A DNA stretch of 64,000 nt from contig NZ_JACHIB010000017.1 in the NCBI RefSeq assembly GCF_014203015.1, positions 1 through 64,000 of the forward strand, written 5' to 3'. This document shows positions 56,624-60,893 of the stretch, piece after piece. The notes under the pieces were generated by a model that saw only the letters and a list, made by a program, of their open reading frames with translations, was not told the origin of the DNA and did no database searches. The DNA comes from Castellaniella defragrans (lineage in GTDB: Bacteria; Pseudomonadota; Gammaproteobacteria; Burkholderiales; Burkholderiaceae_B). The stretch's first letter is position 1. Every line of letters starts with the position of its first letter. Made by a program: the position numbers and the translations under genes.

Positions 56624-57535
56624 ATGATCCGCAGCATGACCGCCTTTGGCTCCGCCCGTCTGGATTCCGACGCCGGCTCGATCAGCGCCGAGATCCGCAG
56701 CGTCAACAACCGCTTTCTGGACCTGAGCCTGCGGATCCCGGAAGACCTGCGCTTCGCCGAATCCCGCCTGCGCGACCTGGTCGGCCGCCAGGCCCTGCGC
56801 GGCAAGGTCGAGCTCAAGCTGAGCTACGCCGCGCTCGACCGCGAGGCCCTGCGCCCGCTGGATCCCGAGGCGGTGCGCGCGCTGGCCGAACAGCTGCAAT
56901 GGGCGCGCCGGTTCATTCCCGACCTGCCCGCCCCCACGCTGGCCGAACTCCCGCGCGAAGGCGGGCTGCGCGGCGGGCTGGACGCCGAAGTCTGGCTGCC
57001 CCTGTGCGAGCAGGCCTGCGCGCAGGCCCTGGAGGAATTCGGCGCCGCGCGCCAGCGCGAGGGCGCCCGGCTGGCCGAGGCGATGCTGGCCATGGCCGGG
57101 GAGGTCGATGCCATCGTCGCGCGCGTGGAAACCGAACTGCCGGCCCTGGTGCGCCAGCACCAGGAGCGCGTCGCCCAGCGCCTGCGCGAGGCCCTGGAGG
57201 CCGCCAGCCCGGAGGGCTTCGCCGCCATCGGCGGGGCCGAGCTCACCGCCCGCATCGCCCAGGAAGCCAGCCTGTTCGGCCTGCGCGTGGACGTGGCCGA
57301 GGAACTCACCCGGCTGCGCTCGCACCTGCAGGAACTGCGCGAGATCCTGTCCGGCAGGCATGCGTCCGCGGCGCGCGGCGGCAGCGGCAAGCGGCTGGAC
57401 TTCCTGTTCCAGGAAATGAACCGCGAGGCCAACACCCTGGGCTCCAAGGCCGCCGCCCTGTCCGTCACCCAGGCCGCCATCGACCTGAAGCTGCTGATCG
57501 AGCAGATGCGGGAGCAGGCGCAGAACATCGAGTGA
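56624..57535 (+). CDS. yicC: YicC family endoribonuclease-like protein
   Basis: A 303-residue protein with the conserved opening M-I-R-S-M-T-A-F-G-S-A-R and R-S-V-N-N-R-F-L-D, and the C-terminal DUF1732 block G-K-R-L-D-F-L-F-Q-E-M-N-R-E-A-N-T-L-G-S-K. YicC proteins affect stationary-phase growth and RNA decay. It lies divergent from rph. Confidence 0.92.
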   Translation: MIRSMTAFGSARLDSDAGSISAEIRSVNNRFLDLSLRIPEDLRFAESRLRDLVGRQALRGKVELKLSYAALDREALRPLDPEAVRALAEQLQWARRFIPDLPAPTLAELPREGGLRGGLDAEVWLPLCEQACAQALEEFGAARQREGARLAEAMLAMAGEVDAIVARVETELPALVRQHQERVAQRLREALEAASPEGFAAIGGAELTARIAQEASLFGLRVDVAEELTRLRSHLQELREILSGRHASAARGGSGKRLDFLFQEMNREANTLGSKAAALSVTQAAIDLKLLIEQMREQAQNIE

Positions 57536-57568: not shown

Positions 57569-57582
57569 TTGATCCAGATCAA
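57569..57582. promoter_or_regulatory. Perfect FNR/NNR-type box upstream of the NO reductase operon
   Basis: TTGAT-CCAG-ATCAA matches the FNR/NNR/Dnr consensus at every defined position. It lies between yicC and the NO reductase genes, 329 bases before the first of them, so a long leader is implied. The -10 region at the expected distance is poor. Confidence 0.7.
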
Positions 57583-57671: not shown

Positions 57672-57715
57672 CAAGAACATTCTGTATCTCCATGATACAT
57701 AGGAATATATTCTTG
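57672..57715. promoter_or_regulatory. Interrupted inverted repeat in the A+T-rich leader of the NO reductase operon
   Basis: CAAGAA/TTCTTG outer arms and TGTATC/GATACA inner arms surround TCCAT. The segment 57655-57800 is much richer in A+T than the genes around it. It could be an operator or an mRNA hairpin. The rest of the 376-base gap (57536-57911) holds the FNR box (57569-57582) and a GGAGG ribosome binding site just before 57912, but no convincing gene. Confidence 0.5.
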
Positions 57716-57911: not shown

Positions 57912-58175
57912 ATGGCGCAACGCATTATCGACGGGGTCCTCTCGGCCCTGGCCGGCCTGGTCAGCGTGCTGCTGTCCTGGCCCTACTGGCGGGATTTCGA
58001 ATACTGGCCGGAATCCCATGCCATGTGGTGGCTGTACATCGCGGTGGGCTACGTCCTGGCGGTGTACGTGTTCTACGTCTTCATGGGCAGCCTGCGCACC
58101 CTGTTCCTGCATGACGAGCAGGCGCGGGCCCCGGCATCCGGGCGCGAAGGCCTGGCGAGGGAGGACCGGTCATGA
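57912..58175 (+). CDS. Small membrane protein at the head of the NO reductase operon
   Basis: An 87-residue protein with two hydrophobic segments (about residues 4-26 and 37-65) and a charged C-terminal tail. GGAGG stands before the ATG. Its TGA overlaps the NorC start by 4 bases (ATGA), so it is translated with it. I do not know its family; by size and position it recalls the small NorH-type or CcoQ-type subunits found with other haem-copper enzymes. A structural or assembly subunit of this NO reductase is the natural guess. Confidence 0.7.
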   Translation: MAQRIIDGVLSALAGLVSVLLSWPYWRDFEYWPESHAMWWLYIAVGYVLAVYVFYVFMGSLRTLFLHDEQARAPASGREGLAREDRS

Positions 58176-59155
58176 GCTGCCTGAACGGTACCGACTGCCG
58201 CGAACCGGCCAAGCGCCGCGCCGCCCTGGCCGTGCTGGGGCTGATGCTGGCGATCTTCCTGCTGCTGTCGGCCTGGTCCTTCCTGCCGTCCCGCGTGCAG
58301 GCCATTCCCGATACGATCCAGTACGGCGGCGTCGACGCGGTGGAGGGCAAGCGCGTCTTCCAGGCCTACAACTGCATGGGCTGTCATACCATCGTCGGCA
58401 ACGGCGCCTATTTCGGGCCCGACCTGACGCGCATCTACGCCGATGCCGGGCCCGCCTGGCTGGCCGCCTTCCTGCCTTCGGCGGGCGGCTGGCCCACGTC
58501 GGCCGCCGTGCGGGTGCAGCTGCAGAATCCCGCGGTCCGGGAAGACGCCGGCTCCGCCGACCTGCAAGACTACCTGCGGCATCATCCCGGGGTGGCCGAG
58601 CGGCTGGACCAGCGCGGGGGCCGGCACACCCTGATGCCCAACCTGCCGCTGGACGCCCATGAGGTCGCGGCGCTGATCGCCTTCCTGAAATACACCTCGT
58701 CCATGCACACCGAGGGCTGGCCGCCCAAGCCGCGCGAGGATCGGCGGATCCCCGCCGGCCTGGCCGGGCCGGCGGCGGCCGGCAGTCCGGCGGCCAGCCA
58801 GGCCGTCGCCGCGGCCGCCACGGCGCCCCCCGCCACGGCCGCCGCGCCGGACGCGCAGGCCCAGGATCCCGTGGCGCGCGGCCGGCAGCTGGTCTCCGAC
58901 CTGGGCTGCGTGGCCTGCCACGCCACCGACCAGAAGCGCACGGTGGGTCCGGGCTGGGGCGGCCTGGCCGGCCACGCGGTCGAGCTGGCCGACGGCACCA
59001 CCGTCACGGCGGACGAGGCCTACCTGGTCCGCTCGATCCGCCAGCCCGACGCCCAGATCGTCGCGGGCTACCCGCCGCACGTCATGCCGTCCTACGACGC
59101 GCTGATCGACGAGGCCGACATGAAGGCCATCGTGGCCTTCCTGCGCAGCCTGTGA
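58172..59155 (+). CDS. norC: NorC-type cytochrome c with a second, caa3-type cytochrome domain
   Basis: A 327-residue membrane-anchored cytochrome. One helix (about residues 18-36) is followed by a NorC domain with C68-M-G-C71-H, the N-G-A-Y-F-G-P-D-L segment and a Met ligand near 155 (T-L-M-P-N). G-W-P-P-K near 182 closes this part. An Ala/Pro linker (about 195-230) leads to a second haem domain with C246-V-A-C249-H and M305 (P-H-V-M-P-S-Y), which resembles the cytochrome tail of caa3 oxidase subunit II. Ordinary NorC has only one haem and about 150 residues. Confidence 0.85.
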   Translation: MSCLNGTDCREPAKRRAALAVLGLMLAIFLLLSAWSFLPSRVQAIPDTIQYGGVDAVEGKRVFQAYNCMGCHTIVGNGAYFGPDLTRIYADAGPAWLAAFLPSAGGWPTSAAVRVQLQNPAVREDAGSADLQDYLRHHPGVAERLDQRGGRHTLMPNLPLDAHEVAALIAFLKYTSSMHTEGWPPKPREDRRIPAGLAGPAAAGSPAASQAVAAAATAPPATAAAPDAQAQDPVARGRQLVSDLGCVACHATDQKRTVGPGWGGLAGHAVELADGTTVTADEAYLVRSIRQPDAQIVAGYPPHVMPSYDALIDEADMKAIVAFLRSL

Positions 59156-59168
59156 AAAGGAAGCCATC

Positions 59169-60893
59169 ATGATCAAGATCGACTATCAGACACAGCGCCT
59201 GAGCCTGCGCTTCTTCCTGCTGATGCTGGTGCTGTTCGGATTCCAGGTCCTGTTCGGCCTGCTGATCGCCGTGCAGCACGTGGACCCGCACCTGCTCTCG
59301 GGCATCCTCAACTTCAACGTCCTGCGCGCCGAGCACACCAATCTCGGCATCCTCTGGATCCTGTCGGGCTTCATCGGCACCATCCTCTTCATCGGCCCCC
59401 TGCTGTCGCGCCGCGAGCTGGCCGCTCCCGGCCTGATCCGCTTCCTGTTCTGGGCCCTGCTGGCGGTCACGCTGTGGAACGTCGCCACCCAGTCCCTGGC
59501 GGCGCACGGCATCGCCGGCTGGTGGCTGGGGCAGCCCTGGCTGCAGGAAGGCCTGGAATACCTGGAGGCCGGCCGCGCCGCCGACATCGTCATCTTCGTC
59601 GGCTTCGCCATCCTGGCCTGGGTGGTGCTGCGCACCTTCCCGGCGCGCCGCGAATGGAACGAGATCCACTGGGGGCTGGCGATCGGGGTCACCGCCCTGA
59701 CCTTCGTCTGGCTGTTCGGCGTGTTCTTCGTCGAGCGCCTGGACCTGCAGGAATACTTCCGCTGGTACGTGGTGCACTACTGGGTCGAGGGCGTCTGGGA
59801 AGTCATCCACATCAGCCTGGTCGGCTTCCTGCTGGTGCTGATGTTCAAGGCCGACGTCAAGGCGGTGGGCTACGCCGTGTTCTGGGGCGTGGCGATGGTC
59901 TGGCTGTCGGGCCTGATCGGCAACGCCCACCATTACTTCTGGATCGGCACGCCGGAATTCTGGCAGTTCTGGGGCTCGCTGTTCAGCGCCCTGGAACCGC
60001 TGCCGCTGGTGTTCTGCTTCTGGCACATCTACCTGGACGCCCACCAGGACCACCGCCCGCTGGAAAACGCCCCGGCCTTCTACTTCATCCTCGGCTCGGT
60101 GGTGCTGGAGCAGGTCGGAGCGGGCATCCTGGGCTTCACCATGACCTTCGCGCTGACCAACGTCTGGTCGCACGGCACCTGGGTCACGCCCAGCCACGCC
60201 CACCTGGCGCTGTTCGGCACCTTCGGCATGCTGGGCATCGCGTCGGCCTACTATGCCATCCCGCTGCTGCGCGGCGTGAAGGACTTCGACCAGCGGCTGG
60301 GCCGGATCGCCTTCTGGCTGGTCTTCGCCGGCATGCTGGGCATCGCCTTCGCCTTCGCCATCGGCGGCACGATCCAGGTCTTCCTGTACCGCGCCATGGG
60401 GCTGAACTGGTTCGGCGGCCAGGTCTTCCCCGCGATGCAGTTCTACAAGGTCCTGGTGCCGGTGTTCGGCCTGGTCTTCCTCACCGGCGCGGGCCTGCTG
60501 ATCTACGACCTGCTGACGCTGGGGCTACGCGCCCGCACCGCTCCCCGTGAGCAGGCGGTCCCGCGCGCGGCCGGCGCGGGACGCTGGGGCCGCACGCTGC
60601 ACGGCGCGGAAGCCGGCCTGTGGCTGATGGGCATGTGGCTCTTCGGCGCCTTCATCACCCTGGGGCTGCTCAGCTTCAACCTGGATGCCGTGGCCCAGGG
60701 CGATCCGACCATCCCCTACGTCCTGGCCGGCCTGGGCTATCCGGGCCTGCTGCTGATCACGCTGCTGTTCGTCTGGCGCTTCCTGGCCTCGCTGGAGGCG
60801 CGGGTGGCCGGGGCGGCGGGGGTGGCGGGCGAACCGGCGCCGTCCAGCCCCGCCGCCGGCCACGCACCGATCGATCAGGCCGCCCGGGCCTGA
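59169..60893 (+). CDS. norB: Nitric oxide reductase large subunit, extended NorB
   Basis: A 574-residue haem-copper superfamily protein with about 14 helices. The cNOR ligands of Pseudomonas aeruginosa NorB all have counterparts four residues earlier: haem b H56 and H345, haem b3 H343, FeB ligands H203, H254, H255 and E207, and the conserved E211 and E276. It should reduce 2 NO to N2O. Two extra helices follow the normal NorB end (about 482-545), and a Pro/Ala-rich tail ends the protein. No norQ or norD is adjacent. The 3' end overlaps the urea transporter gene by 19 bases. Confidence 0.88.
   Translation: MIKIDYQTQRLSLRFFLLMLVLFGFQVLFGLLIAVQHVDPHLLSGILNFNVLRAEHTNLGILWILSGFIGTILFIGPLLSRRELAAPGLIRFLFWALLAVTLWNVATQSLAAHGIAGWWLGQPWLQEGLEYLEAGRAADIVIFVGFAILAWVVLRTFPARREWNEIHWGLAIGVTALTFVWLFGVFFVERLDLQEYFRWYVVHYWVEGVWEVIHISLVGFLLVLMFKADVKAVGYAVFWGVAMVWLSGLIGNAHHYFWIGTPEFWQFWGSLFSALEPLPLVFCFWHIYLDAHQDHRPLENAPAFYFILGSVVLEQVGAGILGFTMTFALTNVWSHGTWVTPSHAHLALFGTFGMLGIASAYYAIPLLRGVKDFDQRLGRIAFWLVFAGMLGIAFAFAIGGTIQVFLYRAMGLNWFGGQVFPAMQFYKVLVPVFGLVFLTGAGLLIYDLLTLGLRARTAPREQAVPRAAGAGRWGRTLHGAEAGLWLMGMWLFGAFITLGLLSFNLDAVAQGDPTIPYVLAGLGYPGLLLITLLFVWRFLASLEARVAGAAGVAGEPAPSSPAAGHAPIDQAARA

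Follow-up and report, generated by a model that had tools for sequence, protein, structure and literature searches.

A predicted three-gene nitric oxide reductase with a 14-helix NorB and a di-haem NorC in Castellaniella defragrans

The window analysed here is a stretch of 64,000 nucleotides from Castellaniella defragrans (assembly GCF_014203015.1, contig NZ_JACHIB010000017.1, positions 1-64,000, forward strand). Between positions 57912 and 60893 it carries the genes of an unusual predicted nitric oxide (NO) reductase (NOR), as the initial annotation had observed and as is confirmed below. They code for a small membrane protein, a NorC with two haem c motifs and a NorB with 14 predicted transmembrane helices. 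This NorB type and the enzyme it belongs to, comprising the window proteins and relatives whose NorB is 63-95% identical, are referred to as long NorB and long NOR. The genes, followed by the other features of the locus, are:

57912..58175, + strand, small membrane protein of 87 residues with two hydrophobic stretches and an invariant His67
58172..59155, + strand, di-haem NorC of 327 residues: membrane anchor, NorC-type haem c domain, linker and caa3-type haem c domain
59169..60893, + strand, NorB of 574 residues with 14 transmembrane helices and all haem b, haem b3 and FeB ligands
58373..58387, + strand, first haem c motif, CMGCH, in the NorC-type domain; Cys, Cys and His invariant in 32 rows
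58907..58921, + strand, second haem c motif, CVACH, in the caa3-type domain; Cys, Cys and His invariant in 32 rows
59775..59801, + strand, NorB residues 203-211 with FeB ligands H203 and E207, plus E211, from the 3o0r_B alignment; invariant in 78 rows
59853..59861, + strand, NorB D229-V230-K231, the place of Paracoccus D220/E222, mapped partly via Paracoccus numbering
60603..60827, + strand, NorB residues 479-553, two added C-terminal helices in the AlphaFold2 model; hydropathy peaks at 492 and 527
57569..57582, no strand, perfect FNR/Dnr-type box, TTGATCCAGATCAA, 342 bases before the first start codon

The gene for the small protein, said at the outset to be coupled ahead of norC, is an open reading frame (ORF) that overlaps norC by four bases (ATGA), and 13 bases separate norC from norB. 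In the alignment with the Pseudomonas aeruginosa NorB (3o0r_B, 465 residues), the window NorB keeps all the metal ligands of cNOR. The constant four-residue offset claimed in the initial annotation is observed at the nine residues H56, H203, E207, E211, H254, H255, E276, H343 and H345, but not at the glutamates E130 and E133, where the offset is five. Among 78 long NorB rows (76 loci introduced below, locus L068 and the window), there is no variation at H56, H203, H254, H255, E130, E207, E211 and E276, and 77 rows retain H343/H345, the one exception being a truncated sequence.

The AlphaFold2 model of NorB, built on a 52-row alignment (predicted local distance difference test 80.3, predicted template modelling score 0.87), contains 14 long helices, the last two of which (residues 479-504 and 514-553) are both C-terminal. 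The hydropathy peaks can likewise be read as 14 helices, in agreement with the two extra helices announced earlier. Residues 4-457 of the model match cNorB (4xyd_A, Z 38.9, root-mean-square deviation 2.5 over 441 aligned residues; 3o0r_B, Z 36.5), and the next folds are cbb3 (Z about 32) and qNOR (Z about 29). The Foldseek/VIA-align rows span NorB to about residue 460 and so contain no solved match for the two extra helices, which is no evidence that these are arranged in a new way. Homology of the extra helices to NorE/COX3, COX4 or qNOR was rejected, with a best E-value of 0.18 for a whole sequence (six tested) and of 0.035 for a single stretch. The sole Pfam match of NorB is PF00115 and NCBIfam gave no match for the window protein. 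Both phmmer and profile searches placed NO reductases far above any oxidase.

The first CxxCH domain of NorC matches the NorC of 3o0r and 4xyd by sequence, and the second matches the cytochrome c domain of caa3 oxidase 1w2l (1.7e-17), which bears out the caa3-like domain that had been noticed on this protein. The same 1w2l is the nearest solved relative of the C-terminal domain in the model search (TM-score 0.89 by target). NorC chains rank low in the model-based search with NorC (E about 0.05); the identity of NorC is drawn from the sequence matches. The linker, residues 183-228, is modelled with low confidence. All 32 rows keep both CxxCH motifs as well as Met 155 and Met 305, the likely ligands. 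Two CxxCH motifs lie within one norC ORF in 72 of the 76 loci; three of the four misses are at contig ends and one (L093) is apparently frameshifted. Given these two conserved CxxCH/Met sites, an internal electron relay, as the initial annotation had proposed, is plausible. Two cysteines precede the membrane anchor, Cys 3 (58178-58180), nearly invariant in the 32 rows, and Cys 9 (58196-58198), a majority column of the consensus. The norC frame is apparently broken in L093 and L126 (split or run-on ORF), possibly by assembly errors.

The small protein has an invariant His67 in 32/32 rows in addition to its two hydrophobic stretches. No similarity to NorH was detected in a comparison that is a weak test, with two short membrane sequences as targets, and none to NorF-like or COX4-like proteins, which were dismissed as homologues. 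A solved chain as homologue was also rejected (best E 0.27), and weak Pfam matches within the family (best 3.3e-4, 6 of 32 members) were taken as general membrane similarity. The member encoded at 8764-9057 of L122 (Trueperaceae) carries a His/Asp-rich C-terminal tail.

Relatives of the unit were sought with a pattern scan of 84,980 species genomes based on a 12-row NorB alignment, which yielded 76 named loci from 125 matched stretches; relatives lacking the two peptide patterns of the scan would escape it. NorC adjoins NorB in all 76 loci and the small gene is present in 73, the three loci without it (L114, L127, L130) all being at contig ends. A four-base overlap joins the small gene and norC in 65 of these 73 loci, and norC and norB in 53 of 74, two loci with broken norC frames being excluded. 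The recurrence of the three-gene order across 76 loci indicates that it is more than chance. In a codon-scored gene call around the loci, any additional gene occurred in at most 11 of the 76 and no other neighbour was common across lineages, although this caller recovered just 46-61 loci even for the three genes of the unit, so that rarer shared neighbours may escape it. Since no other cross-lineage neighbour was found, the unit is suggested to be self-contained and transferable.

The hosts belong, by record titles, to Pseudomonadota, Planctomycetota, Verrucomicrobiota, Kiritimatiellota, Deinococcota, Gemmatimonadota and Bacteroidetes; every host from another phylum than Pseudomonadota is a metagenome bin. 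Named isolates come from Castellaniella, Rhodanobacter, Luteimonas, Lysobacter and Mesorhizobium, together with strain HdN1; the closest named relatives, at 84-95% NorB identity, are Castellaniella. Genome draws found long NOR in 12 of 250 genomes of the family, in 1 of 369 of the class (the own genome) and in 2 of 398 of the phylum (own genome included). Among the matches listed in these draws the next NorB is at most 37% identical, with nothing between 63% and 37%. The 25 pattern stretches in viral contigs include no relative of long NOR; on plasmids, 317 records match, none covering 80% of the query and all below 60% identity. Three genomes, two from the genus of the window and one from its family (loci L160, L159 and L162 in genomes G160, G029 and G027), have no long NOR match and carry a Thermus-type norC with one CxxCH and a norB of 469 residues, followed in L160 by a NorH-like gene of 97 residues. 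Related strains seem to have replaced one NOR module by another.

In a 64-row tree, 23 long NorBs form one clade (support 100/99) outside all 35 cNorB rows, including the Thermus type. A 36-row tree without the far outgroup separates long NorB and qNOR from all cNorB with support 100/99. Approximately unbiased (AU) tests rejected the grouping of long NorB with seven Thermus-type and near rows (p 0.009) as well as with twelve canonical cNorB rows (p 0.002). A position of NorB inside ordinary cNorB, which the initial annotation had named as fatal to its proposal, is in this way rejected, and the distinct NOR architecture it had proposed is supported by the conserved three-gene unit, the clade outside the sampled cNorB and the 14-helix model.

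The absence of norQ and norD next door, pointed out from the start, extends further: neither was found in the own genome (0 matches for CbbQ_C, 0 for NorD) nor in the flanks of up to 10 kb that the 76 related loci include on either side. The Paracoccus NorB residues D220 and E222 were placed at D229 and K231 of the window protein via the P. aeruginosa numbering and via E198, taken as the number of the Paracoccus FeB glutamate. In Paracoccus, FeB is inserted by NorQ and NorD, and the NorB variants D220A and E222A are reported to fall to 4% in activity and to 24-28% in non-haem iron (PMC9976466). The site 229-231 reads D-R-E in 50 of 51 canonical cNorB rows. The Glu equivalent to E222 is replaced by Lys or Arg in all 78 long rows and in all 5 Thermus-type, 6 near-Thermus and 5 qNOR rows, these groups having been drawn after the tree was seen and L071 being absent from it. 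The first-position Asp is kept in 37 of 78 long rows, and for this reason only the Glu position is a clean mark.

With a single NorD query, genome searches recovered NorD in 47/47 genomes with a D-R-E NorB, out of 48 canonical genomes searched; none was found in the 80% complete genome G742, whose site is P-R-S. Nor was NorD found in G600, in four Thermus-type genomes or in the own genome. In five other near-Thermus genomes the VWA part alone (residue 341 on) matches NorD, on contigs other than that of norB; the matches in G549 (195 and 192 bits) are indistinguishable from true NorD. Among eight genomes with long NOR and without ordinary cNorB, one of which (G185) is 78% complete, NorD was found in none and CbbQ_C in one, and where both NOR types coexist NorD and CbbQ_C were both found (5/5). 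It is possible that the D-R-E site on NorB is a sequence mark for NorQD dependence. The different assembly factors suggested in the initial annotation are supported at the level of sequence (no NorQ or NorD in the genome, the Glu charge-reversed in 78/78), and its interpretation as a whole is partly supported.

Of the 76 host genomes, 50 were searched for other NORs (E 1e-15). Long NOR is the sole cNOR/qNOR-type match in 21 of them, and 6 of the 50 have an ordinary cNorB by score. In 14 of the 21, including the isolates Mesorhizobium denitrificans LA-28 and Mesorhizobium sp. Root157, a predicted nitrite reductase accompanies it: NirK above the cut-off in 11 and, in the other 3, a strong match to cytochrome d1 over its full length, by which NirS and NirN are not completely distinguished. 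Besides long NOR, the own genome carries a qNOR as well as two NirK-type genes above the cut-off. A good share of the hosts yielded no cNOR/qNOR-type enzyme besides long NOR, which is therefore probably their NO sink in denitrification.

Within 400 bases upstream of the unit, FNR/Dnr-type boxes with at most one mismatch occur in 17/72 loci, compared with 24/2212 control stretches and 11/1440 shuffles; 31/72 loci have no such box with up to two mismatches. In the window, an inverted repeat (TGTATC-TCCAT-GATACA, 57683-57699) lies between the box and the first gene and could be the site of a second regulator. A promoter scan found no sigma-70-type site. The upstream neighbour of the unit is the ORF 56624-57535, presumably a yicC-like gene. 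On the other side, a urea transporter gene (PF03253, 60875-61786, - strand) is convergent with norB, the two ORFs sharing 19 bases.

Taken together, these data are best read as a three-subunit membrane NO reductase of a lineage apart from the sampled cNOR and qNOR, independent of NorQD and fed through a caa3-type domain, a reading to which we give a probability of about 0.75. The caa3-type domain at the C terminus of NorC would receive the electrons, which would pass through the NorC-type haem c and haem b to the haem b3/FeB site of NorB, where two NO would be reduced to N2O. FeB would be inserted without NorQ or NorD, the small two-helix protein would most likely be a structural or assembly subunit, and expression would probably respond to low oxygen or NO via an FNR/Dnr-type regulator. 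Several points weigh against this reading. Long branches are flagged in the 64-row tree, whose bootstrap is not quite settled, and since the tree is unrooted, the most that can safely be said is that long NorB lies between cNOR and qNOR. The pattern of Lys/Arg and NorD is strong but mostly follows one clade boundary and so counts few independent events. G062 has a weak CbbQ_C match (26 bits, cut-off 20.6) about 100 kb from norB. In seven of the 21 sole-NOR genomes no clear NirK or NirS was found (in one of them, G1015, the d1 matches are strong but split), the majority of these 21 genomes are metagenome bins whose completeness is not stated, and "sole" covers the cNOR/qNOR-type classes only. 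Finally, the role assigned to the second haem, and the donor, are deduced from the order of the domains.

The small two-helix protein might be a dedicated FeB-loading factor that replaces NorQD: it is co-encoded, mostly overlaps norC and keeps His67 throughout, and the Thermus-type norCBH, which lack the NorQD-linked Glu, likewise carry a small membrane protein. This is a tentative idea and a somewhat unlikely one, given that no similarity to NorH or to NorF/COX4-like proteins was detected and that nothing may need replacing if, as stated in PMC9976466, qNOR works without NorQD. Long NOR could also serve NO detoxification or NO tolerance rather than respiration, in line with the seven sole-NOR genomes without clear NirK/NirS and with the additional qNOR of the own genome. 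We regard this as unlikely in view of the 14 of 21 that encode NirK or a NirS-like protein, the two Mesorhizobium isolates among them; a two-haem input would, besides, suit a respiratory chain. Alternatively, long NOR would be an ordinary cNOR, namely a fast-evolving cNorB branch with a C-terminal tail and a NorC fusion, fed and assembled canonically, with unrelated MoxR/VWA proteins in place of NorQD. The cNorB fold and ligands, the separate haem-bearing NorC subunit, the G062 match and the long branches that lower the safety of the tree would all fit, yet the AU tests reject nesting in either the canonical or the Thermus-type branch, neither NorQ nor NorD was found in the own genome and the Glu is Lys/Arg in 78/78, which makes this quite improbable. 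An oxygen reductase or other haem-copper enzyme, suggested by the general PF00115 match, the cbb3 folds ranking next and the caa3-like second haem domain, is hardly credible beside NO reductase matches far above any oxidase and the invariant E207 and E276, which in PMC8756737 mark cNOR/qNOR in contrast to a Tyr in oxygen reductases.

NO reductase is the producer of N2O in denitrification. If long NOR is a third, deep lineage that is NorQD-independent like qNOR, NorQD-driven FeB insertion would have arisen later, within one cNOR clade, and could be read from the single D-R-E site, and NorQD would not be a general rule for cytochrome c-fed NO reductases. Long NOR also makes it a testable question which NO reductases need an ATP-driven chaperone for FeB loading, and which residues decide it. 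Surveys using canonical cNorB or NorQD markers may overlook long NORs or call them oxidases, because NCBIfam gave no match for the window NorB and even canonical NorB appears in plasmid records under the label 'cbb3-type cytochrome c oxidase subunit I'. In the open-licence part of PubMed Central no description of a 14-helix NorB with a di-haem NorC was found; a large NOR survey outside it, reportedly that of Murali and others in PNAS 2024, may contain them. Seven NOR classes derived from this survey are named in PMC12569097. Elsewhere, Nitrospirae ORFs are mentioned that contain a cytochrome domain and show similarity to norC (PMC8756737), a Rhodanobacter NorB is modelled without remark (PMC8809349), and norBC is entered as cytochrome c-dependent in a survey of Castellaniella (PMC11046850).

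With canonical cNOR (norCB, norQD and norEF of Pseudomonas, Paracoccus and Roseobacter) long NOR shares the NorB fold, the haem b, b3 and FeB ligands and a separate membrane-anchored NorC with haem c. It differs from it by 14 modelled helices instead of 12, a separate clade, a second haem c domain, a small co-encoded protein, no NorQ or NorD found and Lys/Arg in place of the NorQD-linked Glu. By every residue tested it is predicted to work like a cNOR; it is not filed there because it departs from canonical cNOR in the number of helices, in its clade and in NorQD. Among three-gene cases already described, the nearest is the Thermus norCBH (PMC7694296, PMC9270275), which likewise has a small membrane protein, no NorQD beside it and no NorQD-linked Glu, whereas its NorC has one CxxCH and its NorB, of 476 residues, belongs to a different clade (AU p 0.009). 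Similarly, qNOR (NorZ) has Lys/Arg at the same site (5/5), falls on the same side of the unrooted split and does not need NorQD-type helpers (PMC9976466), but consists of a single chain whose cytochrome c-like domain carries no haem (PMC3413370), instead of having a separate di-haem NorC. The domain known from caa3 oxidase subunit II (1w2l) is here fused behind a NorC-type haem domain and would serve NorB. Membership of sNOR, eNOR, gNOR or CuA-NOR was rejected, since these are described, in PMC8756737, with Asn, Gln or Asp for the active-site Glu and a cupredoxin subunit II, in contrast to the invariant Glu and the haem c subunit II found here. The putative NO dismutase, a qNOR-type chain minus one conserved His according to PMC3413370, was set aside as well, all six His of the haem and FeB sites being kept here beside a separate NorC. 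Overall, the odds appear about even that long NOR is a third, deep lineage of the cNOR/qNOR superfamily, three-subunit and di-haem, outside the whole sampled cNOR radiation and, like qNOR, independent of NorQD.

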